Made by a program: the position numbers and the translations under genes. This document shows, piece by piece, positions 16,560 to 35,611 of a stretch of 64,000 bases of DNA. Position 1 is the first letter of the stretch, and every line of letters begins with the position of its first letter. This stretch comes from Candidatus Tumulicola sp. (GTDB taxonomy: Bacteria; Vulcanimicrobiota; Vulcanimicrobiia; Eremiobacterales; Eremiobacteraceae): assembly GCA_035601835.1 (NCBI GenBank), contig DATNNM010000011.1, forward strand, positions 248,001 through 312,000, read 5' to 3'. The notes under the pieces were generated by a model that had not been told where the DNA came from, searched no databases, and saw nothing but the letters and a program-made list of their open reading frames with translations.

Positions 16560-16562
16560 CGG

Positions 16563-20843: not shown

Positions 20844-20859
20844 TCGGTTGTTGGAGGCG

Positions 20860-21156: not shown

Positions 21157-21281
21157 GGCAGTCTCCCTCTTTGCGGCTGTCGCCGCTAGGAATGTGCCCG
21201 GCGGACTCGAAAATGTCTGTGTCGCAAGACATGCCCGGGTCCGCCCGAGCAGCGTATCTAAGGGGCATGCGCCCCATTTAG

Positions 21282-21306
21282 GGCTCAGCGGGCACACCGC
21301 TGAGCC
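21282..21306. other. 10-bp perfect hairpin
   Basis: GGCTCAGCGG/CCGCTGAGCC with a 5-nt loop, upstream of the DUF3892 gene and before the divergent plus-strand genes. It could be a terminator, an operator or a recombination site. Confidence 0.45.
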
Positions 21307-21421
21307 TTAAACGTGTCCCGCCTTCTGCACTAACCCCTGGTATCCTTCAAAAGTATCGACTTGCACCAATAAAGCATCAGGTATAATTGACGCAACCAGC
21401 CGCCCGTGGTAGCATCTGAGC

Positions 21422-21865
21422 ATGCCGGATCAGTTCTCGACCGACCTGAAAGAATTTGGGTCGGTCAATCACCGAATCGGTGAGTTGGAAAGGGAGCTTG
21501 ATAATCTTCGTGCCCAGCGCGACACGCTGCAACGGCGGCTGCGCGGACAACTTTCGGCGGCACATGGCCTTCCGCGCGAGGCGATTCGCGACGATGCAAG
21601 GGGGCCAACACCTGACGCCGTGCGCGCCGTTGTGGAGTTCCTACGGTCTGTGGAGGGGGCCCGGTCCGTCTCAGACGTTGCGCAGGAGCTGCGGATAAAC
21701 GAGCGTGCCGCTACTAACCGCCTCCTTCGAGCCGAAAAGGCGGGGTTGATCGAGCGCGAAGCGCGCGGGAGGTATCGCATGAAAAGCATACCGCCCAGCG
21801 CATCAGCTACGAGCGACGCTAAGAACGAGCAATCAGGCGCGACCGCAACTGAGTCGGGCGAGTAG
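21422..21865 (+). CDS. Coiled-coil/winged-helix DNA-binding protein
   Basis: 147 aa. Residues about 14-45 (RIGELERELDNLRAQRDTLQ) form a coiled coil. Residues about 64-118 form a winged helix: VVEFLRSVEGARSVSDVAQE, then NERAATNRLLRAEKAGLIER. The tail is Ser/Ala/Thr-rich. Probably a regulator of the following Cas2-fold gene, whose start lies 5 nt after its stop. No named family. Confidence 0.7.
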   Translation: MPDQFSTDLKEFGSVNHRIGELERELDNLRAQRDTLQRRLRGQLSAAHGLPREAIRDDARGPTPDAVRAVVEFLRSVEGARSVSDVAQELRINERAATNRLLRAEKAGLIEREARGRYRMKSIPPSASATSDAKNEQSGATATESGE

Positions 21866-21870
21866 CCGGA

Positions 21871-22152
21871 ATGGTTCACATAGTGACCTACGATCTTCGA
21901 AGTCCCAACGACACGCCTGCTGACTATGACCGCGTAATAACCGCCATCAAGGGCGCGTTTCCAAACTGGGCCCACGTTGAGAAATCCGTGTGGTTAGTGG
22001 ATACGCCCCTTACCGCGGCACAGGTTCGCGACCACCTCCAACAGTCTTTGCACGATGGAGACGTTCTCTTTGTCGCGCGCCTTCATAAGCATTGGGCGTC
22101 CATATACTTTGGTGATGAACGTAACAATTGGCTAAAGACTCGCGCCTTCTAA
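21871..22152 (+). CDS. Cas2-fold (SinR/VapD-like) small protein
   Basis: 93 aa. It begins MVHIVTYDLRSP, the Cas2-type first strand with an Asp, and continues DYDRVITAIKGAFPNWAHVE, KSVWLVDTPLTAAQVRDHL and DGDVLFVARL. This matches the ferredoxin-like Cas2/VapD group of small nuclease-related proteins, often labelled SinR family. There is no Cas1 and no CRISPR array in the window. A toxin or RNA-cleaving role is possible but unproven. Confidence 0.65.
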   Translation: MVHIVTYDLRSPNDTPADYDRVITAIKGAFPNWAHVEKSVWLVDTPLTAAQVRDHLQQSLHDGDVLFVARLHKHWASIYFGDERNNWLKTRAF

Positions 22153-22177
22153 GGCGCTCGAAAGGAGGTGGACTTGA

Positions 22178-22300
22178 ATGAAAAACTACGTCGGAGCAAC
22201 ATTAGTTCTCGGATTGATGTTTGTCGTCGCCGATGGCTTCGTCAGGCAAGAGGAATCCCTGTTTGCTGCGTTCTGCAAGCTGCTCGGATTGCGAAAATAG
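22178..22300 (+). CDS. 40-aa membrane microprotein
   Basis: ATG 22178 is preceded by a very strong Shine-Dalgarno (AAAGGAGGTGG). Sequence begins MKNYVGATLVLGLMFVVADG, a single hydrophobic helix, and ends with FCKLLGLRK. It is 25 nt after the Cas2-fold gene and in the same direction. Size and position are those of an antitoxin-, holin- or leader-like element; function unknown. Confidence 0.6.
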   Translation: MKNYVGATLVLGLMFVVADGFVRQEESLFAAFCKLLGLRK

Positions 22301-22492
22301 CAGGACGAAGCCGAGGTGAAGGTTCATCGACTCAGGTTCGACACCGAAAAGTGCCCGGATTCAGCGCGCGTCGCATCTTTTATTGATGAAATACTGACGC
22401 GATGGCCCCGCTCTTGCCAAGCTCTGCTATAATCCAAGGCGAAGGGGCTGCCGAATATAGTCGTCAGTCTTGGCCAACGGGAGTTTTGCAAA

Positions 22493-22963
22493 ATGAAGAA
22501 GCCTTTGACTGTTAATATAGTTTCGGCCGCCGGTACCTTGGGCCAGCCGATCAGCGTCGGCACCATTCGTGTGCCAAAGGTTCCTAGGATTGACACGGGC
22601 GAGGCCTTCGAGACAGAAGAGATCATCACTGAAGGCGTCGGTGTGAACGTGCATAGCGGTGAACTTTCGAAGCAGGCCTTTGTACTTGACCTTTTCAAGG
22701 GCGGAGCTTCGAAAGTTACCAAAGTCAAAATCGAAGACATGACGAGTGATCTGAACAGTGCCCTGACGGCCCTTGATGCAAGCTTCTCACCGTGGTTCAA
22801 TAAGCCGGTTGGTGGGCTCAACCTTCAGACGGTCGAGGTGAACCTACAAGCCTCAGCAGACGGCAAGATCGGGATTCTCGGCACTGGTGCCTCCCTTGGC
22901 GGCTCGGCGAGCATCAAGTTGGTCTTCGAGCGCAAGAAGGCGGACTCGAATCTAACGCAATGA
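22493..22963 (+). CDS. Trypco1-like (CU044_2847-type) domain protein
   Basis: 156 aa, mostly beta. The C-terminal block TVEVNLQASADGKIGILGTG, then GSASIKLVFERKK, resembles the trypsin-co-occurring domain 1 ending (VEvxfGxkxsaeagaviaxxgxxxxxxVxLxW). In other genomes this domain is linked to peptidases or STAND-type conflict systems. A -10 like TATAAT lies at 22428-22433. The next gene (23001) is the natural candidate partner. Confidence 0.55.
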   Translation: MKKPLTVNIVSAAGTLGQPISVGTIRVPKVPRIDTGEAFETEEIITEGVGVNVHSGELSKQAFVLDLFKGGASKVTKVKIEDMTSDLNSALTALDASFSPWFNKPVGGLNLQTVEVNLQASADGKIGILGTGASLGGSASIKLVFERKKADSNLTQ

Positions 22964-23000
22964 TCGAGGCTGGAGCACCAAGTGACGGTGGCACTCGCAG

Positions 23001-23765
23001 TTGACTACGCGTCACTCGCGACGTCCAATCTCTGACGAGGAGATTCTCGATCCCTTCGACCGTTTCTTAGCGAACAGGGTTCGAGTGATTGAGGGCCTAC
23101 TGAAGGCCGACCCATATTCAATTGACGCCCTTGGCCTGATGGGGATTGTCATGTGCTCGTTGGGGAAGTATTGTTACCCGGGAAAGGGGACCCAAAGGCA
23201 GTTTCGGTTGCTGCTAAGAGAACACTGCCCCTCATTCAAAGAACGTGTGAGCATTCCGATTCTACTGAGAAAACTGAAGAGAGAAGGCGGCCACGCCAGG
23301 TTTGAGAGCAACTGCCGACGGGCTTACCCCTTAGAGCATAATTGGCTAGTCCGCGAGGCGACCGCCGATCCATTGGAGGCGGACTTTCTGAGATGGACTG
23401 CCGGGCTCGGCTACAGAACTCCCTCGGAATTGATTGATAGGGCCACCTATAGCTACTTGATCTACGTCGATTACCGCACGTGCATTCACCACGAGCTGAG
23501 AGTGGGCAAGGAGCATGAGCCGTTCAGGGGGTTACCAACGGAACACGAAATCTACTACGAAAATCAGAGCAAAGACGGAGACCCGCCGGAGGAATACATG
23601 CATTTATGCGTCGCGCCCGATCACTTATTGCTTTTACTCAAAGAAGCAATTGCGAATTTGCGCGCATGGGCACTCGCAAACAGACGGAACTTGTTTGCCA
23701 ATCCGGCTTCGAAGATCGGGGTAAGTGGTTCAACGGCTGTCCGGCTGTGCGATTCTGTCACGTAG
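23001..23765 (+). CDS. Hypothetical protein, possible partner of the Trypco1-like protein
   Basis: 254 aa, soluble, no signal peptide. Starts MTTRHSRRPISDEEILDPFD; features include a Cys/Tyr-rich stretch (CSLGKYCYPGKG), RVSIPILLRKLKREGGHARF, and an RTCIHHELRVG segment. No family recognised. It begins 37 nt after the Trypco1-like gene on the same strand and the two appear co-transcribed. Confidence 0.6.
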   Translation: MTTRHSRRPISDEEILDPFDRFLANRVRVIEGLLKADPYSIDALGLMGIVMCSLGKYCYPGKGTQRQFRLLLREHCPSFKERVSIPILLRKLKREGGHARFESNCRRAYPLEHNWLVREATADPLEADFLRWTAGLGYRTPSELIDRATYSYLIYVDYRTCIHHELRVGKEHEPFRGLPTEHEIYYENQSKDGDPPEEYMHLCVAPDHLLLLLKEAIANLRAWALANRRNLFANPASKIGVSGSTAVRLCDSVT

Positions 23766-23879
23766 GGCTTCAAGCAGCTCGTATCTTGGCGGAGTTCTTT
23801 GTGACTGAGCGGTCTCTCGCGCGACTCGGGCTATGAAAAGCGCCGCCTGGTAAACGTGCCGCAGTTCACGCCAAATTTT

Positions 23880-24263
23880 TCAAACAGTACGGCGATCTTT
23901 GGTCATCGAGGCTCCCTCGGCAGGAGCGCTGGACAGAATAGTGTCAAAGTCGCTTATGATTTCTTGGACGCATTTTTTTGCCGGACCGTCTAGACAGGAC
24001 AACGTGCCTAGCAGTACTAGCTCCTCGCGCAGGAGCCCAAACATTTTCGCCTGGTAGTCGATCACATCTCTCAGGTTATGAAATGCCCCGCCCGGTATTG
24101 TGCCGCTGTCTCCCTGCTTTTTGAAAAACTCCCCGACAATCGTGCCGACCTGGCGGCCCTGCGGGTCGCGATTGAGAATCGGCTTGAGCGCATCCATCAT
24201 CGTTTGCCCATCGTTCTCGATGTCGGTCACAACCGCGACAAACAGTTCGCCTAGTTTACTCAC
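23880..24263 (-). CDS. Hypothetical helical protein
   Basis: 127 aa starting at GTG 24263 behind GGAGG. Mostly alpha-helical by composition (LGELFVAVVTDIENDGQTMM; VIDYQAKMFGLLREELVLLG). The start overlaps the stop of the upstream small gene by 4 nt (GTGA), so the two form an operon. Convergent with the 23001 gene. Function unknown. Confidence 0.6.
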   Translation of the reverse strand: MSKLGELFVAVVTDIENDGQTMMDALKPILNRDPQGRQVGTIVGEFFKKQGDSGTIPGGAFHNLRDVIDYQAKMFGLLREELVLLGTLSCLDGPAKKCVQEIISDFDTILSSAPAEGASMTKDRRTV

Positions 24264-24457
24264 CTTCGGCCTCCGAACAACCCGAAGATGCTTCGGCCAA
24301 GGTTCCCAAAGAACCGCCAAAACACGTGCTGACCCATTCGCCGCGCCATGCGTTCTGATTTGCCCGAGGAGACAGCCTCAACGTCACCAAGGATTGAACC
24401 TGCGCGGTAGACTTTCTGCCGCAAACTAGAGAGCCGCAGTTTTCTTGGGAGCTTCAT
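24260..24457 (-). CDS. Small basic amphipathic protein
   Basis: 65 aa from ATG 24457: MKLPRKLRLSSLRQKVYRAG near the start and RMARRMGQHVFWRFFGNLGR near the end. The Arg/Phe/Gly-rich C-terminus looks membrane- or nucleic-acid-interacting. Small proteins of this style are common on phages and plasmids. Coupled to the next gene by a GTGA overlap. Confidence 0.5.
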   Translation of the reverse strand: MKLPRKLRLSSLRQKVYRAGSILGDVEAVSSGKSERMARRMGQHVFWRFFGNLGRSIFGLFGGRR

Positions 24458-24552
24458 AGTTCGTTCTTCGCCAGGCAAGAGTCCCAGACTCTTTCAACCG
24501 GGGGCTTAGTACCCCTCCGGCTCGTCTCCCTCGGGGTCCGCGCTAGACAACC

Positions 24553-24582
24553 AAAAAGCCCCGGCGTTTCCGCCGAGGCTTT
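24553..24582 (-). terminator. Rho-independent terminator
   Basis: On the minus strand: stem GCCTCGGCG / CGCCGGGGC with a GAAA loop, followed by TTTTT. It closes the recombinase / AT-hook / membrane protein operon that ends at 24605. Confidence 0.8.
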
Positions 24583-24604
24583 GAGGATGCTAGAGTTTAC
24601 GGCC

Positions 24605-24778
24605 TCACCAACCCGCTGCGCGCTGCCCCAACCAAAAGATGAGCAGTACAAACGCACCGATGATGGCAACGACCGAGAACCAGCCGTATTTCTTCCTGCG
24701 CCATAGAGCGTTCAGCGGAAGCAGGAAGACCAGGGTGAGGAGAGCCCAAACGAAGACATCGAACGCGAGCCTAGTCAT
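24605..24778 (-). CDS. 57-aa two-helix membrane protein
   Basis: Starts MTRLAFDVFVWALLTLVFLL, then a basic turn (LWRRKK) and a second hydrophobic helix (WFSVVAIIGAFVLLIFWL). ATG 24778 overlaps the stop of the upstream AT-hook protein gene (ATGA). It is last in the recombinase operon, just before the terminator. Holin-like topology; function unknown. Confidence 0.65.
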   Translation of the reverse strand: MTRLAFDVFVWALLTLVFLLPLNALWRRKKYGWFSVVAIIGAFVLLIFWLGQRAAGW

Positions 24779-24972
24779 TGGCGAGCCTCTTTCTTCTGAG
24801 CGGCCTTCCAGCGGCGCGAGCCGGGGACAAGACCCTTCGGACGTCCGCGCGGCCGCCTAACCTTCAAACCCAAGATCGACAGAAGCGAAAACTGCGAGGC
24901 GTAATTCTCACCAGCACCATTCGGAGAACCCCACGTCCGCCGATTCGATCCGTAGTTGAACATGTGCCACAT
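24775..24972 (-). CDS. Small AT-hook-like protein
   Basis: 65 aa. Residues about 38-52 (KVRRPRGRPKGLVPGSRR) carry an AT-hook core RPRGRPKG, which binds the minor groove of AT-rich DNA. It starts 2 nt after the recombinase stop and overlaps the membrane-protein gene by 4 nt. It might serve as an accessory factor for the recombinase. Confidence 0.55.
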   Translation of the reverse strand: MWHMFNYGSNRRTWGSPNGAGENYASQFSLLSILGLKVRRPRGRPKGLVPGSRRWKAAQKKEARQ

Positions 24973-24973
24973 G

Positions 24974-25678
24974 TTAGGCAGCCTCCAGTGCGAGCTTAGA
25001 GTTCAGGACCTGCCTTACTGTGGCCGGATACCACTTGTCCCCGGCTCGGGGCTTGATTCGATTCTCTGCCAGCCAGCGAGCGATACTCTGCCAAGAATCG
25101 TTCTTAGCGCGCATGGTTCGTATTTGGGCAAGTGCGCGCTGCTCGGCCTCGGCAGGTCGGAAGTCCCCGCCGACACGCTTCCAGCCAAAAGGAGCCGTGC
25201 GACAGTAGGCCTTGCCATCGAGCCGTGCTTTGCGTAGCGCGAAGGATGTTCGCTCGCCAACCTGCTCGGCTTCTAACTGCGCCAAAGAGCCTAGAAGGGT
25301 GATGACAAAGCGACCCATGGAAGTTGACGTGTCGATATTCTCAAAGACGCTCACGAATGAAGTCTTATGCGTCTCGAACTCCTGAAGGAGGTTGAGCAAG
25401 TCTCGCGTCGATCTGGAAACCCGATCAACCTTAAGCGTGATGATCGTCTCGACTTGGCCTTCGCGGACTTCGCGTCGCAACCGCTCCAGCATAGGCCGTC
25501 GCGTATTCTTCCCGGACCGAGCTGCGTCGATCAGAACGTCCGTAAGCGCCCAACCCTTCGCAAGAGCGTAGCCCTCAATGCGGGCCTGTTGCGCGTCCAA
25601 AGAGATACCTTCGTCAGCCTGACCCCTGCTCGAAACTCGCGCATACCCGTAGACTTTGCGCGTACTCTTGTCTGCCAC
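24974..25678 (-). CDS. Serine recombinase (resolvase/invertase family)
   Basis: 234 aa. Catalytic Ser16 in YGYARVSSRGQ; further motifs AARSGKNTRRPMLERLRRE, KVDRVSRS, and ENIDTSTSMGRFVITLLGSL before the E-helix. A short C-terminal HTH-like part follows (SWQSIARWLAE, ATVRQVLNSK). It is resolvase-sized and not a large integrase, so it likely resolves multimers or inverts DNA. Start GTG 25678 has GGGAGGT upstream. Confidence 0.9.
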   Translation of the reverse strand: MADKSTRKVYGYARVSSRGQADEGISLDAQQARIEGYALAKGWALTDVLIDAARSGKNTRRPMLERLRREVREGQVETIITLKVDRVSRSTRDLLNLLQEFETHKTSFVSVFENIDTSTSMGRFVITLLGSLAQLEAEQVGERTSFALRKARLDGKAYCRTAPFGWKRVGGDFRPAEAEQRALAQIRTMRAKNDSWQSIARWLAENRIKPRAGDKWYPATVRQVLNSKLALEAA

Positions 25679-25697
25679 GATCCCTACCTCCCATGAC

Positions 25698-25741
25698 GGT
25701 ATATTACCATTATTATATCACTAAGTACTATGCACCGCCAA
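25698..25741 (-). promoter_or_regulatory. Promoter and operator of the recombinase operon
   Basis: Minus strand TTGGCG (25741-25736), 18-nt spacer, TATAAT (25717-25712). Immediately downstream is the inverted repeat GGTATATTACC (25698-25708), a candidate autoregulatory operator or resolvase subsite. Confidence 0.65.
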
Positions 25742-26369
25742 GCCGCTCTATCCCCACCGTGAGCGGGTCTCTGGTGTCCGATTAGCGCCAAAGAATCACC
25801 CCCGCTCCTTGGGCACCCCCACACAGCGGATGCCCTCCCTTGGGCGTAGGAAGCGCTAGGAGCGACGATTTTGCCCTGCCCATAAGGCTTTGCGACAACG
25901 TATGTATTTTTGGCCTAGGAGGGCTTAGAATGCAAATTCACGCGGACTTGAGGCAAGCTCGCTCCCGGATCGTCATTCCTGCCTAGCGCTGACGCCGTGG
26001 CGGGATCACGGTCGATCCCAGGGCGAGCGCGACCGTATTACATAGAACTATAGCATAAGGTCTCAAATCGACCTCCCTAACCCGAACCGCTCAAACCCTT
26101 ATAACATAAGGCTTTCCGGCTCCCCAAGATCAGCTACGGAGACCCTTGGGGGATAAGAAGCAGTGGGAAAAAGTAGGACCCGGCTGCCCCGCACCACCAC
26201 ACAACCTTACCGCGCGTGGCCGTCAACTCGATTTGAAAAAACCGGCGGACCCGATCCACGATTTTGGATTTTTTGACCGGGGGACTAGACTAGGGACTAG
26301 ACCCGTGACCAGACCCGTGACATGACCGGGGACACCCCGGGGACACGCAACAGAAAGGAATACAATCTC
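25742..26369. other. Long non-coding region with direct repeats
   Basis: About 630 bases with no plausible gene. It holds two near-identical direct repeats CATAAGGCTTT(G/C)CG (25881-25894 and 26105-26118), AT-rich patches, and a series of short 12-nt-spaced repeats at 26281-26340 (GGGACTAGAC twice, then CCGTGAC variants twice, then GGGGACAC twice). Candidate resolution site, origin or operator array for the gene at 26370. Confidence 0.5.
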
Positions 26370-27551
26370 ATGACCCTCCCGATAACTCAACACTGCAGCC
26401 ACTGCGGAAAGGCCTATCGCCCCAAGAAAATAGGCGTTCAGCAATCCTATTGCATTACCAAATGCCGCGAGGCCGCTCGGAAAGCTCGGCACCGCGCCAA
26501 GAACCGTCCGGCGGTCGCCTTCGGCCAAGCTCCGACCGCAAAGCCGATCCTACCTGATCTTGAAATGGACGCCCTGGAAGCCGACGTCGCTATTCTAGGC
26601 AAGCTCCGAGAGAAGGAAGTCGGGCTCTTCACCGAGAGCAAAGACTTCGACGACGTCGAGCGTACCCTGAGCGCGGTTCTGGATCGAATCCTGGTCGAGA
26701 TGGACGAGCTTGGCACAAGTCGGCGCGAGCGGATCGAGGCGCGTCAGGGTAGCGTCGCAAGCGTGTCTCAATTGGTCAGCAACTACACGGGCACGGTCGA
26801 GCGGATGTCCCCGAAGAACCTACGCGCCCACAAGGAACGCGAGGCCCTGGCTCTTCGCAAACTCGCTCCGAGGATGGATGCCCTCGGACTAAGCTTCGAA
26901 CTCCCTCCGGTATCGGCCATTGAAGTTGACCGTCCGGAGTTCTTGGCGGCTTATCCCGACGAGGTGCGCGAGGCAATAACGGCGCGCGTCCAAGAACTCT
27001 TTACCCTCGTCGACGAAGATCGTGGTCAGTTCCCCTTGCTCTATGCGTTCGCAGTCGACGAAATGCTCTTGCGAGTGCTGCGCAGCCGCCAGCTTGACTC
27101 ACCGGACGCCGAGGTTACAGTTCCCCTAAAGCAGGCCTCGGCCCGGCTCAAGAAGTTGGCAGAATCCCTGGCACTCAACCGAGTAGCCGTCGAAAGGCAC
27201 GGATCGTGGATTTCTCCCGAGGAGGGCCTACTGACGACGTTTGTTGAGAACTGCGAGCGCGCAGCGCAAGCAAGAGAGGAAGAGGCTCAGGAAGAGCGAG
27301 TCCGCGTCGCTTTGGACGCCCGCGTTCGTAGGATCATAAACGGTGAGCCCTCAGAAGAGCGATCCTTGCCGGGCAAGTCAGAACCGGCAGTACGACTCGC
27401 GGAAGAAGTTCACAAACGCGAAGACGGCACTACCACCCTTCCGTCCGCCCAAGCCCCGACCTTCGAGGAAGCTCTGGCGCGCGAACGCTCGACTCAGGCG
27501 CTTGCGGAACAACTCGCTGACCAACTCGACAAGCAATGGACACCATACTAA
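26370..27551 (+). CDS. Zinc-ribbon and coiled-coil protein of unknown function
   Basis: 393 aa from ATG 26370 (AAAGGA upstream; a 16-residue longer start at 26322 lies inside the repeats). The N-terminus has a zinc finger: CSHCGKAYRPKK, then SYCITKCREAARKARHR. The rest is acidic/basic, Ala/Glu-rich helices including RERIEARQGSVASVSQLVSN and a long coiled-coil C-terminus. It may be a DNA-binding replication or partition protein; no family is recognised. Confidence 0.65.
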   Translation: MTLPITQHCSHCGKAYRPKKIGVQQSYCITKCREAARKARHRAKNRPAVAFGQAPTAKPILPDLEMDALEADVAILGKLREKEVGLFTESKDFDDVERTLSAVLDRILVEMDELGTSRRERIEARQGSVASVSQLVSNYTGTVERMSPKNLRAHKEREALALRKLAPRMDALGLSFELPPVSAIEVDRPEFLAAYPDEVREAITARVQELFTLVDEDRGQFPLLYAFAVDEMLLRVLRSRQLDSPDAEVTVPLKQASARLKKLAESLALNRVAVERHGSWISPEEGLLTTFVENCERAAQAREEEAQEERVRVALDARVRRIINGEPSEERSLPGKSEPAVRLAEEVHKREDGTTTLPSAQAPTFEEALARERSTQALAEQLADQLDKQWTPY

Positions 27552-27721
27552 TGCAAACCTGTGCTTATTGCCATGAACTGATCGAAGGCGCGGTCTACAA
27601 CGAGGTGTACTGCTCGTTCCGATGTCTGCTCGAACACGAGCCTATCCGTGAACGAAACTTCCAGGAAGCGCTCGAAGCTGCGAAGGAGCAGAGTCGCCGG
27701 CGATTTTACGGAGGCGGCTAA
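27551..27721 (+). CDS. Small zinc-ribbon protein
   Basis: 56 aa. MQTCAYCHELIEGAVYNEVY, then CSFRCLLEHEP: CxxC and CxxxC, a treble-clef/zinc-ribbon pattern similar to that of the preceding protein. ATG overlaps the upstream TAA by one base, indicating coupling. Confidence 0.65.
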   Translation: MQTCAYCHELIEGAVYNEVYCSFRCLLEHEPIRERNFQEALEAAKEQSRRRFYGGG

Positions 27722-27870
27722 TCAGAGACGGCTCTATCCCCGAAGCGTTCAAGAAACACCGGGACTCCATACTCTTGGAGCACGGCAAGGGCGTCAGCCG
27801 CTGACTTCCGATCCTCAAACTCGAAGTAGAATCTTCGCCCCGTGGACAGGTGCGTAATGCAGATGCGCAT
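27718..27870 (-). CDS. 50-aa hypothetical protein, convergent
   Basis: ATG 27870 with GGAGGT ten bases upstream. Sequence starts MRICITHLSTGRRFYFEFED and ends LERFGDRAVSD. It has a plausible beta-alpha layout. The 3' end overlaps the stop of the zinc-ribbon gene on the opposite strand. Function unknown. Confidence 0.45.
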   Translation of the reverse strand: MRICITHLSTGRRFYFEFEDRKSAADALAVLQEYGVPVFLERFGDRAVSD

Positions 27871-28060
27871 AGCAACGGGTACCTCCGTTGCGACCATAGC
27901 ACACAGACATGGTAAGGTCGAAATCGAGAACTGCGCGCGACCTTCATCGTAAGGTTTGGCGGAAATAGCTCTCCGACAAGGTCGCCTTCTTCGTCAGGTT
28001 TGTCGGCAAACCACGATTAGGTAAAATTCCATTCGTCCCGCTATGAAAAGGTCTACCCTC

Positions 28061-28090
28061 TTGACAAATGGGACAGTCCTGTGATACAAT
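28061..28090 (+). promoter_or_regulatory. Sigma-70 promoter before the HNH gene
   Basis: TTGACA (28061-28066), 18-nt spacer, TACAAT (28085-28090). Close to consensus. Predicted start near 28097. Confidence 0.75.
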
Positions 28091-28096
28091 CCGATA

Positions 28097-28130
28097 GCAC
28101 AGTGGTTAATGCCACTGCGCCTCGTTTTTT
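28097..28130 (+). terminator. Attenuator-like hairpin at the transcription start
   Basis: CAGTGG (28100-28105) pairs with CCACTG (28112-28117), extended by GC pairs to 28097-28120, followed by CTCG and TTTTTT (28125-28130). It begins at the predicted start of transcription, so the nascent RNA would fold at once into a terminator. Could be an attenuator or yield a very short RNA. Confidence 0.6.
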
Positions 28131-28151
28131 GTCCGGGCACCGGACCATTTC

Positions 28152-28706
28152 ATGGGGCTCTCGCCCTCATCGCGACCCACTCCTTCGCCGCCGAACGTCG
28201 CGGGCGGCACCCAAGTAGCGGACGTGACAGCAGTAAACCCCGAGATCGAGGCGGCCGTGCAGGCTGCCTTAAAGTGCCATGCTTACCGCAAGCGCCACTC
28301 GTCGCGTTGGGGTCCCTCGCCCCAAGATTTGTGGATCGTCGACTGCGAGGGTTGCCGTAAGACGTTTCCCGCGTACCGGCGGTCGGCGAAGCATTGCGAG
28401 CCAAAGTGCGGCCGAGCCCATCGGGAGCGCTTTAGCCCTCGGGCACAGGTCTTAGATCGGGATCGGCATCGCTGCGTTGCATGTGGCGAAACGTCGCGTC
28501 GAATGTTCGTCCGGGCCCCGATAGGTGCGCCTAAGACGTTCGAGTCTCTTCGAACCCTTTGCGGAACCTGCCACCGTCGGCAATCGCATCGGGTTTTCTG
28601 GGACCGCACCGGGGTTTCCGAGGCTGAACGCAAACGCCGGGCCGAAGCTCGCCTCCGTATCGTCGAAGAGCGATTCTTAGCATTAAGAACGCGCGCAACT
28701 AGATGA
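28152..28706 (+). CDS. HNH-type endonuclease-like protein
   Basis: 184 aa. A first cysteine cluster (CEGCRKTFPAYRRSAKHCEP) is followed by the HNH-like core VLDRDRHRCVACG, then LRTLCGTCHRRQSH, with four cysteines to hold a zinc and a His-rich end. Likely a nicking or double-strand nuclease. The start is uncertain: ATG 28152 gives a Pro-rich lead. Preceded by a strong promoter plus attenuator and followed by a terminator. Confidence 0.7.
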   Translation: MGLSPSSRPTPSPPNVAGGTQVADVTAVNPEIEAAVQAALKCHAYRKRHSSRWGPSPQDLWIVDCEGCRKTFPAYRRSAKHCEPKCGRAHRERFSPRAQVLDRDRHRCVACGETSRRMFVRAPIGAPKTFESLRTLCGTCHRRQSHRVFWDRTGVSEAERKRRAEARLRIVEERFLALRTRATR

Positions 28707-28751
28707 CGAAGCCCACGATAGGATTGGAGAGGGGCATTTTTCCGCTCTCGA

Positions 28752-28783
28752 CGATCTCGCTACGGCGAGGTCGCTCTTTTTTT
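28752..28783 (+). terminator. Rho-independent terminator
   Basis: CGATCTCGC / GCGAGGTCG stem around TACG, then CTC and a run of T (28776-28783). It ends the HNH transcript. Confidence 0.8.
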
Positions 28784-28833
28784 GCCAAGCTGTCGCTTTG
28801 GTCTTGGACCTTAGCCCGAGGAGGTGGCCGAAC

Positions 28834-29082
28834 GTGCCATCATTTATCATCAAAATCGCCAGAACTTTAAGAGCCGAAACGATTGACGAACTCGCCGCGT
28901 CGGTCGGCTCACATCGGAGCACGATCCAGGCCATAGAAGCCAATCGCGCCGATGCGTCCCTCGAACTCAGACGGAAATTGAGCGAGCACTACGGTTTGCC
29001 GCCTGCCGTGCTTTTCACGCGCGTCAGTGACGATTTAATCGCCGACATTTTTGCCTTCATCAAGGGCCGAGTCGCGGCTTAG
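28834..29082 (+). CDS. XRE-family helix-turn-helix protein
   Basis: 82 aa from GTG 28834, with GAGGAGGTGG upstream. HTH core TIDELAASVGSHRSTIQAIE followed by ELRRKLSEHYGLPPAVLF. Likely a small repressor that heads the bS21/replication gene run. Confidence 0.8.
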   Translation: MPSFIIKIARTLRAETIDELAASVGSHRSTIQAIEANRADASLELRRKLSEHYGLPPAVLFTRVSDDLIADIFAFIKGRVAA

Positions 29083-29094
29083 GAGATTACATCC

Positions 29095-29406
29095 GTGGAA
29101 ATTCGCGAAATTCAGACCAAACTAACCGAGATCACGTCGGCGCTGGACAAATATGCGGCGGCCATCGCCGACCAAAATACCTTTATCGAATCTCATGCGC
29201 CTAAAAAGACCCTCCGTGAGGTTGTTTCATCTCTACGCGGGGACGCTTTGAAAACATGGAACGACGAAAATCTATTTTTCGGGACCGCCGATCCCGCGCG
29301 CAAAGCCCAAGTCCGCGAGGCGATAGACATCGCCGAAAGCCTTTTGAGGCGTTTGCCTGACGATCTGCGTGAGCGGGAATGGTGGCAGACTCGCTTTGGG
29401 CACTAA
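29095..29406 (+). CDS. Hypothetical helical protein
   Basis: 103 aa, GTG start, 12 nt after the HTH gene. Begins VEIREIQTKLTEITSALDKY; the rest is soluble and helical. Charged N-terminus suggests a coiled coil. No family recognised. Confidence 0.55.
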   Translation: MEIREIQTKLTEITSALDKYAAAIADQNTFIESHAPKKTLREVVSSLRGDALKTWNDENLFFGTADPARKAQVREAIDIAESLLRRLPDDLREREWWQTRFGH

Positions 29407-29445
29407 CTTGCCCTCATTTCAAAAAATCCCAACTGGAGCAAATAA

Positions 29446-29727
29446 ATGATTAAAAAAGAAAACGACGACCTCGATACCGAGATTTCACTAGCCGACCGCG
29501 CGCGCGCAGAACGAAAGCTTGCGGCCCGAAAAGGGATTGACGACGCGAAGGCCCTGGCTGATGGTCGCCGGGCCATCCGCAAAAAAGCTGACTTCGATTC
29601 GCAGAGGTTCGGCAGTGTGAGTGCCGCCGAAAGTTTTAACCGCGCAGTTGACGCCCGGCAGGCGGTCACGGACCGTGCGGCGGCGTCCAAGAAGCAGCTC
29701 GCCGACGACTTTTCCAAGCTCGCTTAA
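29446..29727 (+). CDS. Hypothetical highly charged protein
   Basis: 93 aa, extremely rich in Ala, Asp, Arg and Lys (DLDTEISLADRARAERKLAA; ADGRRAIRKKADFDSQRF). Probably one long helix. Position in the small-gene run before bS21 suggests an element-specific accessory protein. Confidence 0.55.
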   Translation: MIKKENDDLDTEISLADRARAERKLAARKGIDDAKALADGRRAIRKKADFDSQRFGSVSAAESFNRAVDARQAVTDRAAASKKQLADDFSKLA

Positions 29728-29825
29728 TTCAAAACATTCCCGCCGAGCGTTTCATCCTGGGCGTTTGGCGGGATAGCGGGCGCGCGTTTTCAGCCGCGCG
29801 TCCGAGCGACTCGCCTTACCTTCCT

Positions 29826-30032
29826 TTGGCGGAGTCGTGGAGTGCGGCCGATCCGCGCGAAGCGACGAGCTGGCGTAAACCGCTCGTCGCCGATCTAACT
29901 TGCCCGCCTTCTGCCTTCTATGTGACCGCAGAACTCCAGCGGGAACTCAGCGCGACGTTTTTCCTTTCGTCGCGCGACTCGCGGGCGCTCGAAAAGGAAA
30001 ATACCCTTCACGGCGCTCGCGACATCTTTTAA
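29826..30032 (+). CDS. Hypothetical small protein, start uncertain
   Basis: 68 aa if started at TTG 29826. The frame stays open upstream to about 29727 with coherent sequence (FILGVWRDSGRAFSAARPSD), so the real start may be earlier at a non-ATG codon. The C-terminus FYVTAELQRELSATFFLSSR looks structured. Its stop is 10 nt before the bS21 gene. Confidence 0.4.
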   Translation: MAESWSAADPREATSWRKPLVADLTCPPSAFYVTAELQRELSATFFLSSRDSRALEKENTLHGARDIF

Positions 30033-30042
30033 GAAATACCCC

Positions 30043-30237
30043 ATGATACATGTTCAGCCCGAAGAGGGCGTAATTTCCGCGCTCAAGCGCTTTCGCCGAG
30101 AGATCGAAAAGGCGGGCATTCCTTTCGAGATGCGTCGCCGGGCGCACTTTCTCCCGTCCGGACAGCGACGCCGACTAAAATCACACGCCACGAGAAAGCG
30201 GCTCAAGAAAGCTAACCGATATGAAAGCCCTCGCTAA
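30043..30237 (+). CDS. rpsU: Ribosomal protein bS21 homologue
   Basis: 64 aa. Core ALKRFRREIEKAGIPFEMRR followed by RRLKSHATRKRLKK matches the bS21 pattern (ALRRFKRxxEKAGxxxExRRR, basic C-terminus). In the cell bS21 sits near the anti-Shine-Dalgarno on the 30S subunit and affects initiation. The gene lies inside the mobile element among small ORFs. bS21 is the ribosomal protein most often carried by phages, where it is thought to replace the host copy. Confidence 0.88.
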   Translation: MIHVQPEEGVISALKRFRREIEKAGIPFEMRRRAHFLPSGQRRRLKSHATRKRLKKANRYESPR

Positions 30238-30508
30238 GAAACTCTACCGCGAATGGAAACTCTTGACAACCCGTTTCGTCCTTCGCGTAACTCACTTTGT
30301 TCTTCGTACGCATTTGGCCGTCGCTAATGCGCGAATCGCCTGGCTTAGTACGCGTGGTGCACCCGATCTGCTCCTGAGGGCCAAGTTCGTATGGCTAACG
30401 GCGGAAGTTTCGTGGCTCAAGACTCCAGCGCACATTCGCATCGTGAATCAAATGCGCGAAGCGACGGCGCGTCGCCTTGTCGAGAACATTCCCGACCTAC
30501 ATTTTTAG
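30221..30508 (+). CDS. Hypothetical basic protein overlapping bS21
   Basis: 95 aa, overlaps the bS21 stop by 17 nt. Rich in Leu, Arg and Trp (LYREWKLLTTRFVLRVTHFV; RAKFVWLTAEVSWLKTPAH). Amphipathic, perhaps membrane-associated. Unknown function. Confidence 0.55.
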   Translation: MKALAKKLYREWKLLTTRFVLRVTHFVLRTHLAVANARIAWLSTRGAPDLLLRAKFVWLTAEVSWLKTPAHIRIVNQMREATARRLVENIPDLHF

Positions 30509-30523
30509 CGATAGAGAGGCATT

Positions 30524-30709
30524 ATGAAAGTACCTTCAGGTTGTACCCACATCTGGTTTGTGACCAACCCTGGCACTGTGCTGCGTTCCACCTACGATGA
30601 TGAAACGTCAACGCTCGTCGTTGTGGCGTCGCGCGTAGGTCAAGAGCATAAGTTCACGGCCGATAAACTCACCGAGGTTGCGTCCACAAGAGCGCGCGAC
30701 CTCGAATAA
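30524..30709 (+). CDS. Small hypothetical beta-rich protein
   Basis: 61 aa. MKVPSGCTHIWFVTNPGTVL then TSTLVVVASRVGQEHKF. Likely a small beta-sheet protein. It lies between bS21 and the replication ATPase, same strand. Confidence 0.5.
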   Translation: MKVPSGCTHIWFVTNPGTVLRSTYDDETSTLVVVASRVGQEHKFTADKLTEVASTRARDLE

Positions 30710-30726
30710 CTTTTTGAAAGACGATT

Positions 30727-31839
30727 ATGGACATAGATACAAACACAGAGGCGACGGTCGAAAAGCTCAAGCTCGATTCCGAATGGCAATGGGAAGCTCG
30801 CTCGGCCGACGACATCGCGGAAAACCCCCCGCCTCCACCCTCCTGGGACGCGGAAGGCTTTCTAGAACGCGATTCCGGTCCCGTGCTGTGGTTCGGTGAC
30901 TCGGATTCGTACAAGTCTTGGCTTGCATTGCACGTAGCGAGTTGTATTGCTTCAGGAAGTTCGGTCTTCGGTCACTTCAAGTCGCGGAAGCGAATCAACG
31001 TCTACTACATCAACCTCGACGCCGGGCGACTCGCGTTCGAGCGCCGAGTTTGTCGTCTGGAGCATCATCCGCGCAACCTATACGTGGTGAGCGCTTCTCA
31101 CTGGGAAACAGAGAAGTTTGGTTATCTCCTACGCGAGAACAAAGACACGTTTTATGTGTTTGACTGCTGGACGGACGTCTACGAGCCAAATGCGTCAACA
31201 GAGCAGGCTCGCGACATGCGAGAAGCCATTCGTGCTATACGCGCCGCGTTTGAAAATCACAAGGCGAACGGCATCATCGTTGACCACTCGAAACGGCAAC
31301 AGATCGGTGCTTCAGCCAACCCGGCCGATCTGATCTATGGATCGACACAGAAGAAGGCGTCATTCCGCCAAGTTGCCCACATAAGTACAGTTCGACTGGC
31401 CGAGTTCGAGCCGGGGGTATCTCGCGTAAAGTTCACATGCGTAAAGATGAACGAAGCGGAGAAATATGATCCATTCTTCGTTGACCTGAGGTTCGCGGGC
31501 GGGAAGTACACTTGCACATATGCGGGGCTCGCAGGCGGTGAGGCAGCCGATGGTAGCAAGGCGGAGCACGTCGCCGACTCGGTTATTAGTCACCTTGAGC
31601 GCGTCTTTCCACAATGGGTGCGACCAACAGAGTTGGCGCAAGCCGTGGGACTGGACCGAAGCAGCGGTACCTTCAGGCGAGCAGTCAGCGCTGCGTTCGA
31701 GCGTGACTCAGTCGAGTCAACGGGGAAAAGCAGAGCCCTCCGTTATCGGTTCAAGGCTCAACCACAGGCAGCGCTCGACCTGGAGTCATACGCGATCCCC
31801 GATCCCCTAACGACCGAGGGGCTAGAACCGCGCCAATAA
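30727..31839 (+). CDS. RecA-like replication ATPase (RepA/AAA_25-type)
   Basis: 370 aa. Walker A GDSDSYKS at residues 57-64, slightly unusual but with the Lys-Ser pair; Walker B FYVFD at 142-146. The C-terminal part (PTELAQAVGLDRSSGTFRRA) looks like a winged helix. The size and layout match RSF1010 RepA-like hexameric helicases used by plasmids and satellites. It directly precedes a cluster of GGCGCG repeats and a cruciform, a plausible origin. Confidence 0.75.
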   Translation: MDIDTNTEATVEKLKLDSEWQWEARSADDIAENPPPPPSWDAEGFLERDSGPVLWFGDSDSYKSWLALHVASCIASGSSVFGHFKSRKRINVYYINLDAGRLAFERRVCRLEHHPRNLYVVSASHWETEKFGYLLRENKDTFYVFDCWTDVYEPNASTEQARDMREAIRAIRAAFENHKANGIIVDHSKRQQIGASANPADLIYGSTQKKASFRQVAHISTVRLAEFEPGVSRVKFTCVKMNEAEKYDPFFVDLRFAGGKYTCTYAGLAGGEAADGSKAEHVADSVISHLERVFPQWVRPTELAQAVGLDRSSGTFRRAVSAAFERDSVESTGKSRALRYRFKAQPQAALDLESYAIPDPLTTEGLEPRQ

Positions 31840-32095
31840 ACCGCGCCAACGTGGCGCGATACTGGCGCGAATCGCGTGAAAGCCATACCGCGCCTATATT
31901 CTAATTCGCGCCACGCCCGAAGCATATCTTGGGAGTGGGTACCATAGCCCACCCCGGCCACGTATACACCGATACGTGGCGGGGGGCGTGTACTTTGGCT
32001 GACAAGTAGTTGGTTTCCGGCGCGGATCGAATCGAGCCAATCGCGCCATTCCCTAGGCGCGCATTTTTGGCGCGAATACAGTCGTAAGTGTCGCG
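31829..32095. repeat. GGCGCG-rich iteron-like region (candidate origin)
   Basis: About ten short copies of TGGCGCGA or its complement TCGCGCCA, some with one mismatch, between the ATPase stop and 32095. AT-rich patches lie between them. Such clustered repeats next to a replication helicase gene are typical of a plasmid origin. Confidence 0.55.
31957..31980. other. Perfect 9-bp inverted repeat
   Basis: GCCACGTAT / ATACGTGGC with a 6-nt loop, within the iteron-like region. Candidate single-strand origin, cruciform or terminator. Confidence 0.55.
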
Positions 32096-32296
32096 CTATT
32101 TCTTGTCGTCTGAGGCTTGGGGCTTTTCCGGAGCAGGTTTCGATGTCGGATCGGGGACCCTCTGGGGTGGTTTGTCAAAATCCGCATGATCCGAACCCAT
32201 CGGCGTGGGCTTGTGACCCTTCTCGACTGGTTTCCAGCCTTCGCGGTCCTTCTCGCTCTTCTGGCCTGCAGGTTGCGGTTTCTTATCGTCGGACAC
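32096..32296 (-). CDS. Small hydrophilic low-complexity protein
   Basis: 66 aa, nearly all Lys, Pro, Asp, Glu, Gln, Ser (MSDDKKPQPAGQKSEKDREG at the start; PEKPQASDDKK at the end). Likely unstructured. Start GTG 32296 with GAGGT upstream. Similar start and end sequences (SDDKK) are a curiosity. Confidence 0.5.
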   Translation of the reverse strand: MSDDKKPQPAGQKSEKDREGWKPVEKGHKPTPMGSDHADFDKPPQRVPDPTSKPAPEKPQASDDKK

Positions 32297-32305
32297 GGCG
32301 CTACC

Positions 32306-32869
32306 TCACTCTAGGAGTTCAAACATTAGAATGTCTGCACCGTTGACTATTATACCACGAGTCCGGTCGTGGGGCTCCGAGAAAGAACCATGCTCGTCGA
32401 GCGTCCATACCTCTTCGAGGTAGATTTGCTCAGGTGCTGGATATGATGAAGCGAATGACTTGAAGCCGTATTTCCCTGCGAGCTTCTCCCCGTTACGCAG
32501 ATGCAGGATCACCCAGCGTGTATTCAGCCGGAGGACGTAGTCCCATGGCTTAGCGTAAGGATCGACGGTCGTAAACGGAAGCCACTCTCTGACTTTAAGA
32601 TATAGGAATGGCCAGCCGATTGGCAAGAGGAGTAGACTGATGTAGAGGGCAGGCACGAACCAAACCGGGTCTTTGGACATAAAGAATAGGACGGGACCGA
32701 CCACGGCATAGTTGAGCGCACTGAAGCCAATCGCTTCAGGCAACTGTTTGCTGAAATCACGCGGCTCAGTCGGCACAAGCAGCGAAAATACTTGCATTGA
32801 CACGAAACCGGGCACGAAGAACGCTAGGAAGATTACGATTGAAACCGTGTTCCATATTCCTGAGGGCAT
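32306..32869 (-). CDS. DUF6338-like membrane protein
   Basis: 187 aa. N-terminal helix SIVIFLAFFVPGFVSMQVFS with a VPGF motif, two further hydrophobic segments (YAVVGPVLFFMS, PALYISLLLLPIGWPFLYL), then a soluble C-terminal domain (WVILHLRNGEKLAGKYGFKS; EQIYLEEVWTLDEHG). The arrangement resembles DUF6338 proteins. Same strand as the 66-aa gene; role unknown. Confidence 0.65.
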   Translation of the reverse strand: MPSGIWNTVSIVIFLAFFVPGFVSMQVFSLLVPTEPRDFSKQLPEAIGFSALNYAVVGPVLFFMSKDPVWFVPALYISLLLLPIGWPFLYLKVREWLPFTTVDPYAKPWDYVLRLNTRWVILHLRNGEKLAGKYGFKSFASSYPAPEQIYLEEVWTLDEHGSFSEPHDRTRGIIVNGADILMFELLE

Positions 32870-32955
32870 AGCGCCTCCAATCCTTTACTCATCGAATTAT
32901 ACTCTCAGCGCAGCGTCGCTGATACACCGGCCTTCGGAATCCGGGGCCTGGTGCG

Positions 32956-32969
32956 CGGGCGAAAGCCCG
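32956..32969. other. GNRA-tetraloop hairpin upstream of the excisionase
   Basis: CGGGC-GAAA-GCCCG in a GC-rich patch before the xis-like gene. Together with the neighbouring GGCC-rich stretch it could be a structured leader or a terminator. Confidence 0.35.
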
Positions 32970-33002
32970 AGAAACCCAAAATCCAATTGAGACTAGAACA
33001 GA

Positions 33003-33215
33003 ATGCTTTACCCAAGATCGCTAGAAACCCACTATCAGGGCATCGACCTACTTTCAGAGGGCCTCGTTACCGTGAAGCAGGCCGCAGAGCACTTGCAGTT
33101 GGGTGAGTCCACACTTTACAAACTAATGGAGGCGGGCAAGTTGCCTTTCTGCAAACTAGGCAAGTCGCGTCGCATTCCCAGGGTCGCGCTTCGGATTTAC
33201 GCCGAAAAGGGATAA
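33003..33215 (+). CDS. Excisionase-type helix-turn-helix protein
   Basis: 70 aa. GLVTVKQAAEHLQLGESTLY, then LPFCKLGKSRRIPR: the MerR-like excisionase fold (HTH_17) that binds DNA arms and steers recombination direction. It ends 6 nt before the integrase gene. Confidence 0.85.
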   Translation: MLYPRSLETHYQGIDLLSEGLVTVKQAAEHLQLGESTLYKLMEAGKLPFCKLGKSRRIPRVALRIYAEKG

Positions 33216-33221
33216 GACTCA

Positions 33222-34352
33222 ATGAAAGCACCACGTGGCAAAGGCGAGGGTGGCGTACATTTTAGTAGGAGCAAGGGCCTTTGGGTCGGCTCGATTGCAA
33301 TAGCGCTCGACGAAAACGGTCGAGCAAAACGCCGCTACGTCTACGCGAAGCGCAAGGAAGACCTGCTCGACAAACTCGACTCACTCAAGGCGGACAAAAA
33401 GGACGGCAAGTTGGTAAAGAGCGAGAAGATTAGAGTTGCCAAGTATCTCGAACGCTGGCTCGAAGATGTTGTTCGCCCGGGTCTAACCGTCGGGAGCTAC
33501 AAAGACTACAATAGCGTACTTCGAAACCACGTCATTCCAAATCTCGGCGGCTACAGACTCAGAGACCTGGAACCGTTGCACATTCAAAACTTGTACGCAA
33601 ACCTAGAGCGGAAGGGCAATTCGGCCCGCAACCGTCAGAAGGTTCATATCATCCTATCTGGAGCGCTCAAGCAGGCTTTGGCTTGGAACATGATTGCGGT
33701 AAACCCGTGCAAGGCTGTGAAACCGCCCAAGGTCGAGCGAAAAGAGATGCACGTCCTGGACGAGAGCCAATCCGAGCAACTCTTAAAGGCCGCGAAAGGC
33801 GACCGACTCTACGCTCTTTATGTCTTGGCAATCACAACAGGTCTAAGGCAGGGCGAACTCCTCGGCCTGAAGTGGAAAGACTTGAAATTGAAGGATGAGC
33901 AACCAACTCTGACTGTCTGCAGGACACTAGACCCGATCGGTTTGGTTGCCAAGGACACGAAAACCCCGTGGAGTCGGCGAACCATCGACCTGAATACCCT
34001 TGCTGCCTCAGCCCTGCGCGATCACCAAAAGAACATGCTCGCCGGGGGAAACAGAGCGTCCGAATGGGTCTTTTCAAACACAGAAGGCAACCCATACTTC
34101 CGAGGGAACCTCGTGCGCCAGCAATTTGAGCCAATGCTCACCAAGGCAGAGCTGCCCCGGATTCGCTTTCACGATCTGAGACATACTGCGGCCTCACTCA
34201 TGATAGCGAAAGGCGTTAATATCAAGGTCGTCTCGGCCATTCTCGGTCACAAGGACGTGGTTATCACGCTCGACCGCTATGGTCACATCTTACCCTCGAT
34301 GCAGCGGCAAGCCGTGGACGCAATGGATAGTCTCTTCTCCAAGTTGGCGTAA
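33222..34352 (+). CDS. int: Tyrosine site-specific integrase
   Basis: 376 aa phage-type integrase. N-terminal arm-binding part, SAM-like core-binding domain (AKYLERWLEDVVRPGLTVGS), then the catalytic domain: Arg209 in TGLRQGELLGLKW, H317-x-x-R320 in HDLRHTAAS, His343 in LGHKDV and the nucleophile Tyr353 in LDRYGH. All catalytic residues are present. It should have inserted the element at the ATGAAAGAACT core in the ligase gene. Confidence 0.95.
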   Translation: MKAPRGKGEGGVHFSRSKGLWVGSIAIALDENGRAKRRYVYAKRKEDLLDKLDSLKADKKDGKLVKSEKIRVAKYLERWLEDVVRPGLTVGSYKDYNSVLRNHVIPNLGGYRLRDLEPLHIQNLYANLERKGNSARNRQKVHIILSGALKQALAWNMIAVNPCKAVKPPKVERKEMHVLDESQSEQLLKAAKGDRLYALYVLAITTGLRQGELLGLKWKDLKLKDEQPTLTVCRTLDPIGLVAKDTKTPWSRRTIDLNTLAASALRDHQKNMLAGGNRASEWVFSNTEGNPYFRGNLVRQQFEPMLTKAELPRIRFHDLRHTAASLMIAKGVNIKVVSAILGHKDVVITLDRYGHILPSMQRQAVDAMDSLFSKLA

Positions 34353-34358
34353 CAGCAA

Positions 34359-35003
34359 GTGCCTCACGCCAACTTTAGTATCAAGGTAATCCCTACCGGA
34401 GCCTGGTGGTTTCTCCTGGCGCTTGTCGGGGGTTTCTCGTGGCTACTGTACCAACACAGAAGCGATCCGGACATCTTCACTGCGACTGGCACCTGGATGG
34501 GGGCGCTAGCCGTTGTTTTCGCGCTATCGGTCGCTTACTTTCAACTGAGGGACTTTCGACGGTCGGTTGAGTTTGATGCTCTCTCTCGTCTGATGGAACC
34601 ATTCACGAGGAAAGAATACATGGAAGCGACGAGGCACCTCAACTCGATGTACCCGGTTTTGCACAGTCAAATGAAAGTGGCTGACTTCGACAAGACCAAC
34701 GAAGCCGCCAGAATCATCCTGAACGAGTTTGAGCGAATAGGACAAGCAATTAATTTCGGATTGGTGAGCAAAGACATCATGCTTGAAAGCGTTGTCTATG
34801 ATGTTCTCGTGGGGTGGTCAAAGTTGAAGCCCTTCGTCGAGTTGCAACAGAAACAGGGTGCTTCCTATTGGCGCAACGCTGTTGATTTGCATAGTATGGC
34901 CGAGGAATATCGCAAGAGACACAACTTGGAAGAGCCGCACACCATGAGGCCTGAGGACGTCGTAGAGATAGCCAAGAAAACCGAAAAGGAGGTCCCCACT
35001 TAG
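34359..35003 (+). CDS. DUF4760-like membrane protein
   Basis: 214 aa, GTG start, 6 nt after int. Two N-terminal helices (WWFLLALVGGFSWLLY and TWMGALAVVFALSVAYFQL), then a helical cytosolic domain with FERIGQAINFGLVSKDIMLE, like DUF4760. Last element gene before the right junction; likely cargo. Confidence 0.65.
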   Translation: MPHANFSIKVIPTGAWWFLLALVGGFSWLLYQHRSDPDIFTATGTWMGALAVVFALSVAYFQLRDFRRSVEFDALSRLMEPFTRKEYMEATRHLNSMYPVLHSQMKVADFDKTNEAARIILNEFERIGQAINFGLVSKDIMLESVVYDVLVGWSKLKPFVELQQKQGASYWRNAVDLHSMAEEYRKRHNLEEPHTMRPEDVVEIAKKTEKEVPT

Positions 35004-35013
35004 GTCCCCACAT
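34993..35013. repeat. Direct repeats near attR (possible integrase arm sites)
   Basis: TCCCCACTT (34993-35001) and TCCCCACAT (35005-35013). TCCCCACTT also occurs near attL at 20791-20799. Repeats shared by both ends are expected for integrase arm sites. Confidence 0.5.
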
Positions 35014-35130
35014 AGCGGTGGTCAATGCGGCAAAATGAGAGAACACTGGAGAAACAGGAAATCGTCGCAATGGCTCGTCCGTAAAGGGCTGTAGAGAATG
35101 AGAGAGATTGCGAGAACTCGTCCTGACAAA

Positions 35131-35184
35131 ATGAAAGAACTACGCATCCGCGATCTGCGCAGTCAGGCGAGGCTGACAAAATAG
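35131..35184 (+). pseudogene. Displaced native 3' end of the ligase gene, with attR
   Basis: Encodes MKELRIRDLRSQARLTK and a stop, in the same register as the ligase C-terminus at 20687-20740 (MKELRIRDLRGHAKGVK). The first 11 bases are identical to attL; after that only the protein sequence is conserved, with different third codon positions. The next gene starts one base after this stop, so the ligase and the 35186 gene were once an operon. Confidence 0.8.
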
Positions 35185-35185
35185 G

Positions 35186-35608
35186 ATGCGAAGTCAACGA
35201 GTTTGGTTGATCGTTGTGTTAGCGGTTCTAGGGATCGTTTATTCCGTGATTGCAACGCGGTATTATGCTGCGAATGAGCTCTCAGTCACGCTGTTCATGG
35301 GAAACTCCATGTTTCTTCGATTTCTCCTTGGACCATTTTGGTTCGCCGTAGAGCTTGCCCCAATCACCGTTGTCGTAGCGCTGCTTCGCGTTAACGTCGT
35401 CTACGCCGCGATGACGGTATTGTTCTACGAAGTCATCATGAATGTCGTGCTGTCGACATATTTCCCATGGAATTGGGGCGGTTTCGTCGCCGCCGTCATA
35501 AACATGCCGTGGAACTTCAGCTTTCAGATTCCAGTGTACGGGTTGACGTGGCTCATCTTCGTGTACGCTTGGGACTTGACGCGAAAGTCTCGAGCGAAGG
35601 ACACGTAA
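35186..35608 (+). CDS. Four-helix membrane protein
   Basis: 140 aa, four predicted helices (VWLIVVLAVLGIVYSVIA; FLLGPFWFAVELAPITVVVA; VVYAAMTVLFYEVIMNVVLS; VYGLTWLIFVYAWDL). No family recognised. It was probably downstream of the ligase gene in one operon before the element inserted. The next gene starts 3 nt later. Confidence 0.7.
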   Translation: MRSQRVWLIVVLAVLGIVYSVIATRYYAANELSVTLFMGNSMFLRFLLGPFWFAVELAPITVVVALLRVNVVYAAMTVLFYEVIMNVVLSTYFPWNWGGFVAAVINMPWNFSFQIPVYGLTWLIFVYAWDLTRKSRAKDT

Positions 35609-35611
35609 GCA

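Follow-up and report, generated by a model that had tools for sequence, protein, structure and literature searches.

What is a gene for ribosomal protein bS21 doing in an inserted piece of bacterial DNA, and could its product enter the ribosomes of the host? The gene lies in the window, the whole 64,000-nucleotide stretch of a Candidatus Tumulicola contig that we analysed. Virus-encoded bS21 is already known, so far described almost only from lytic phages: temperate signs were seen in only three of 1310 bS21-encoding viral genomes, and viral bS21 and bL12 incorporate into E. coli ribosomes (Mizuno et al., 2019, PMC6375957). The literature searched contained no account of bS21 being carried by satellites or by integrated elements that lack capsid genes. 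We consider it probable, though well short of certain, that the window gene belongs to an integrated element that is phage-derived or satellite-like, that its bS21 is of a divergent lineage, and that this protein would most likely replace host bS21 on the 30S subunit and thereby shift initiation. The features on which this reading draws are collected in Table 1.

Table 1. Positions of features in the window and, in the last three lines, of sister elements delimited at other loci of the phylum.
Feature	Position	Strand	Basis and remarks
Strain-variable inserted stretch holding bS21, ATPase, integrase and other genes	20741..35611	.	synteny break, lower GC; ends approximate
Remnant of gene preceding integrase in L062 and L063	24260..24478	-	67% and 65% identity over 49 aa
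Serine recombinase, kind adjoining bS21 in L062 and L067	24974..25678	-	PF00239, 128 bits
409-aa protein, N-terminal zinc-ribbon-like motif	26322..27551	+	weak PHROG 16925 match, 30 bits
HTH_3 repressor-like regulator	28798..29082	+	PF01381, 31 bits
bS21 gene, divergent mobile-element type	30043..30237	+	ATG start, 64 aa, PF01165, 49.5 bits
95-aa ORF, start overlaps bS21 end	30221..30508	+	ORF list; no family match (Pfam, PHROG)
AAA_25 (RepA/DnaB-like) replication ATPase	30727..31839	+	PF13481, 66.9 bits
HTH_17 excisionase-like regulator	33003..33215	+	PF12728, 53 bits; PHROG 66 excisionase
Tyrosine integrase	33222..34352	+	PF00589, 91 bits; PHROG 1, 253 bits
L062 element	4300-16750		46-bp exact tRNA-Pro repeat; 12.4 kb
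G088 C39 element (L115/L063)	48150-61849		35-bp exact tRNA-Leu repeat; 13.7 kb
L067 element	4685-15961		26-bp exact tRNA-Leu repeat; 11.3 kb

The initial annotation had called the open reading frame bS21 and named a profile search without bS21 similarity as the result that would speak against the call. The Pfam profile Ribosomal_S21 (PF01165) matches the frame over profile positions 2-54 of 55 (E = 3.5e-13, 49.5 bits against a curated cut-off of 27 bits), and the call stands. PHROG 21469, 'ribosomal protein S21', also matches the protein (37 bits), and phmmer matched it to the bS21 chains of ribosome structures in the PDB (E-values as low as 2.5e-8). A single-sequence AlphaFold model, whose scores are too low to establish a fold (mean pLDDT 70, pTM 0.30), places helices at residues 10-23, 28-34 and 48-59. 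The helix-1 core ALKRFRREIEKAGI is retained in the window copy and in element bS21, and the [FY]YEKP segment, a conserved trait of cellular bS21 copies that lies outside the PF01165 family cut-off, is missing from the window copy, which has HFLPSG there instead.

Database searches returned no close homologue of the window protein. Its best matches (L017-L019, 53-55%) are flanked by V-type ATPase and metabolic genes and were set aside as chromosomal rpsU of another lineage. Klebsiella 'phage' S21 records were rejected as phage copies, as they score the same against the window protein as enterobacterial host rpsU does; they are probably host rpsU genes situated at the borders of prophages. Other phage records gave only weak matches to element bS21, with identity below 50%, and pattern scans of IMG/VR with the window bS21, ATPase and integrase, two sister bS21 and two TerL returned no relatives.

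Whether the window gene is simply the host's own rpsU could be answered by searching the rest of the genome, as the initial annotation had proposed. A profile search of the window genome (2.57-Mb assembly, 97.9% complete) found a canonical rpsU on a separate contig, C14 (79.6 bits), and the window gene is therefore a second copy and not the only one. Exactly one bS21 is present in 12 of the 13 other genomes of the family and none in the remaining one, which is 72% complete; family genomes without the element carry their own rpsU, and two copies occur within the family in the window genome only. A recent duplicate of host rpsU, captured by the element as a dosage copy without special function, would belong to the same protein family, and host genes are common on elements. 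However, the window protein scores 39.8 bits with an HMM of host copies, compared to 131.6 bits for the host's own protein, and 52.5 bits with an HMM of accessory copies built without it, and an AU test rejected its grouping with the rpsU of its own family (p-AU=0.013). We regard such a duplicate as highly improbable.

Across the phylum we found eight divergent extra bS21 copies in 7 of 149 genomes, comprising the window genome, G036, G053, G065, G088 (two copies), G099 and G117. Most of these copies score above the PF01165 cut-off, and most read F[IVL]Pxx[EQ]Rx+xKSxxARKRL where the canonical protein has YEKPSxRRKKKSAAARKRR. In a tree built from 58 alignment columns, in which the accessory copies are all on long branches, they form one group that includes the window copy (support 98/93, or 97/92 without the three longest branches); with the same short alignment and long branches, a position of the window copy outside this group was not rejected (p=0.117). 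A single origin of the lineage is likely on this evidence, though not proven. Candidates that were discarded include extra copies in G033 and G100, which at 21 bits fall below the cut-off and are due to chance, and those in G060, G061 and G082, which are pieces of the canonical gene, either broken or at the end of a contig. G139, an 8.3-Mb genome of another class, was also discarded as a carrier of element copies: its three bS21 genes (L040, L043 and L053, each on a different contig) are of the ordinary type and stand in apparently chromosomal surroundings.

The DNA around the window gene is variable between strains. The sequence from the gene end at 20740 to about 35.6 kb (~14.9 kb) is missing from the family genomes aligned there, and GC falls from ~0.62 to 0.50-0.61. 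On its two sides are a CoA-ligase-like gene, which ends at 20740, and a cytochrome b561-like gene at 36474; the distance between them is ~15.7 kb in the window and ~4.2 kb in G006, where none of the genes of the stretch is present. In the right part, on the plus strand, are bS21, the ATPase, the excisionase and the integrase. The small genes before the replication ATPase that the initial annotation described are indeed there: bS21 lies within a run of small plus-strand ORFs, two of which (30221-30508 and 30524-30709) separate it from the ATPase. The left part, on the minus strand, holds the serine recombinase and a 72-aa gene remnant (159 aa in L062), both matching genes of the bS21-bearing elements L062, L063 and L067; the recombinase is 36-37% identical to those of L062 and L067. 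The closest tested relative of the window integrase is likewise that of L062 (37% identity over its length), and four window genes (integrase, serine recombinase, the small pre-integrase gene and bS21) have relatives in this single element. Relatives of the AAA_25 ATPase occur in only two other genomes of the phylum, in one of them adjoining an integrase and an excisionase, and the 409-aa protein has no full-length relative in 148 phylum genomes.

Among the 20 larger ORFs scanned between 21.4 and 35.6 kb, none matched capsid, portal, tail or terminase families, TerL included, in agreement with the original description of an integrated element without visible capsid genes. No relaxase, partition or plasmid initiator family matched the scanned ORFs either, the AAA_25 ATPase alone being found, and PADLOC returned no known defence genes in the stretch, only weak HTH and recombinase matches. 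The alternative label of integrative plasmid gained no specific evidence; gene content and sister elements favour a phage-derived or satellite-like element, and an integrase, a regulator and a replication gene without capsid genes of its own make up the gene set of a satellite. No attachment repeat above chance was found for the window element, so the ends given in Table 1 are approximate, and two or more insertions may be combined here.

Several further observations concern this and similar DNA. The variable stretch includes two proteins that are possible cargo, one with a Pepco domain (PF24393, 22493-22960) and one with DUF6338 (32306-32869), as well as a 93-aa protein at 21871-22152 that matches the phage family PHROG 1090 (76 bits) downstream of a winged-helix protein. 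The window genome has a second integrated element next to tRNA-Asn (G000 C9, ~27.3-39.1 kb; L118, L119), with a partial integrase and tape-measure, TerL, TerS-like and primosomal genes, and with neither a portal or capsid match nor bS21. In another genome (L113, 5992-10001, G126 C360), an integrase, an excisionase and a DnaB-N/AAA_25 fusion are adjacent, forming a related mobile module with no bS21 in view. L062, L063 and L067 all encode a SEC-C motif plus glycosyltransferase-like protein.

The state of the stretch raises the question of whether the window gene still has a role. It could be a surviving reading frame in a decaying insertion, left from an ancestral element in which bS21 was functional: TerL and attachment repeats are both missing, the left part holds a truncated gene and an opposite-strand recombinase, no Shine-Dalgarno (SD) sequence precedes bS21, and the protein sits on a long branch. 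With SD and close homologue both absent, decay of the window bS21 is possible. However, its reading frame is intact and covers nearly the whole profile, and the integrase, excisionase and ATPase frames are full length. We think a relic without present function conceivable but doubtful. On the reading that we prefer, the window copy is part of an older, rearranged insertion that keeps integrase, regulator, replication ATPase and bS21 and is without TerL and clear ends.

TerL lies 0-2.7 kb from bS21 in six of the seven sister copies (PHROG 38, 338-397 bits), and in L061 the two genes overlap, with the stop of bS21 reaching into the start codon of TerL. The seventh, in G036, has a transposase fragment next to it and is close to the end of its contig. 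The linkage is absent at the window copy, although fragments of this type of element persist around it. The larger ORFs of the three delimited elements match integrase, replication and terminase families, in L063 also a tape measure, with no match to portal, major capsid or lysis genes. Such matches are also lacking in L068, a tape-measure locus for which no ends could be located. Among the unassigned ORFs of L067, none longer than 313 aa remains as a portal candidate; the others may encode very divergent head proteins. The proposal that satellites carry bS21 is widened, from the window to sister copies in small tRNA-integrated elements with a terminase and no recognised head genes. This TerL linkage would also fit an extra-ribosomal use, in which this divergent and basic protein would bind nucleic acids for the element, perhaps during packaging, instead of forming part of the ribosome; the replacement of the conserved YEKPS stretch of ordinary bS21 in the lineage points the same way. 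However, the lineage keeps the helix-1 core and most copies exceed the bS21 cut-off, and published viral bS21 enters ribosomes (PMC6375957). We judge the extra-ribosomal use unlikely.

The initial annotation also supposed a bias of translation initiation and suggested comparing the host anti-SD with the ribosome sites of element genes. A canonical anti-SD is present in all 17 of the phylum's 16S tails that were read (17 of 17), which come from other families, as 16S is absent from all 14 assemblies of the host and its family. The window bS21 has no SD (upstream pairing with the anti-SD of -2.3 kcal/mol) and SD energies of element genes are mixed (-8.7 to +0.3 kcal/mol). The comparison lends no clear support to the bias, being compatible with its presence or its absence. 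The SD of host rpsU, in turn, is exceptionally strong (across 21 orthologues from the class of the host, -11.7 to -16.2 kcal/mol), with AAAGGGGGTG and variants conserved upstream of it (L001, L005-L016, L030-L039), and -12.6 is reached by one of 233 host genes. Most host genes have weak SDs, and SD use in the host is otherwise moderate (first-ATG mean -4.1 versus -2.5 for internal sites, in an energy-based test over 400 kb with a Klebsiella control), and after this test we dropped the idea, drawn from a motif count (20/113 versus 28/113 in controls), that the host hardly uses SDs. Stronger SDs in element and prophage genes than in host genes, another idea we did not retain, appeared only as a trend (38 ORFs, p=0.052). 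Should the SD of host rpsU serve for autoregulation, element bS21 would escape such control; we offer this only as a suggestion because the host otherwise uses SDs moderately, and for the same reason occlusion of the anti-SD is not implied in this host.

How might an element profit from its own bS21? We propose that the divergent lineage is carried by small tRNA-integrated elements with an integrase, a replication gene and usually TerL, and that on element expression its bS21 would most likely replace host bS21 on the 30S platform. bS21 joins the 30S subunit late and exchanges, and because of this late loading and exchange the host protein would be replaceable by that of the element. On our best reading the two compete for the host 30S subunit, and element bS21 would then shift initiation toward the element. 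We infer expression, ribosome incorporation and initiation bias, the second of these from published work on viral bS21. The effect may also be inhibition instead of redirection, which is conceivable because in vitro translation by ribosomes with viral bS21 was strongly reduced, at ~5% (PMC6375957).

What is new is a lineage of bS21 that, within the searches made, occurs only in the integrated elements of one phylum, some of them satellite-sized. This suggests that a host ribosome part is swapped by integrated elements as well as by lytic viruses. Several of the elements are probably too short, and carry too few genes, to build heads of their own. If element bS21 enters ribosomes, resident, inducible DNA can change ribosome composition in a defined host genome, and the long-open question of specialised bacterial ribosomes would become testable with one gene and one element, without lytic infection. 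More tentatively, capsid-less elements that integrate at tRNA genes and encode a terminase of their own may form a family that uses a dedicated, divergent bS21 to make specialised ribosomes in its hosts, in which case retuning would be a regular satellite or temperate trait; we see this as possible and no better than that.

Three known systems invite comparison. Bacteroidota bS21 is autoregulated through an extended SD (McNutt et al., 2023, PMC9976891), and host rpsU in the phylum studied here also has an exceptionally strong SD; unlike in Bacteroidota, the host's other genes use SDs moderately and element bS21 lacks a strong one. The bS21 of viruses, pelagiphage and Bacteroidota phages among them, is likewise a divergent second copy on a mobile genome besides the host copy (Mizuno et al., 2019, PMC6375957; Chen et al., 2022, PMC9723584). 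In Bacteroidota phages the gene adjoins TerL and capsid genes and is expressed late, with a link to late replication (PMC9723584), and the neighbouring TerL recurs in the sister copies; unlike virus bS21, the copies described here stand in integrated elements with integrases, three of them delimited at 11-14 kb, with no recognised head genes. Phage satellites (P4-like, PICI, cfPICI), among whose known genes bS21 does not figure in the literature searched, share with the sister elements a size of 11-14 kb, tRNA integration, an integrase, an excisionase, a replication gene and the lack of a full capsid gene set. In contrast to these satellites, the sister elements carry their own TerL and some a tape-measure gene; no packaging gene is present in the window element.
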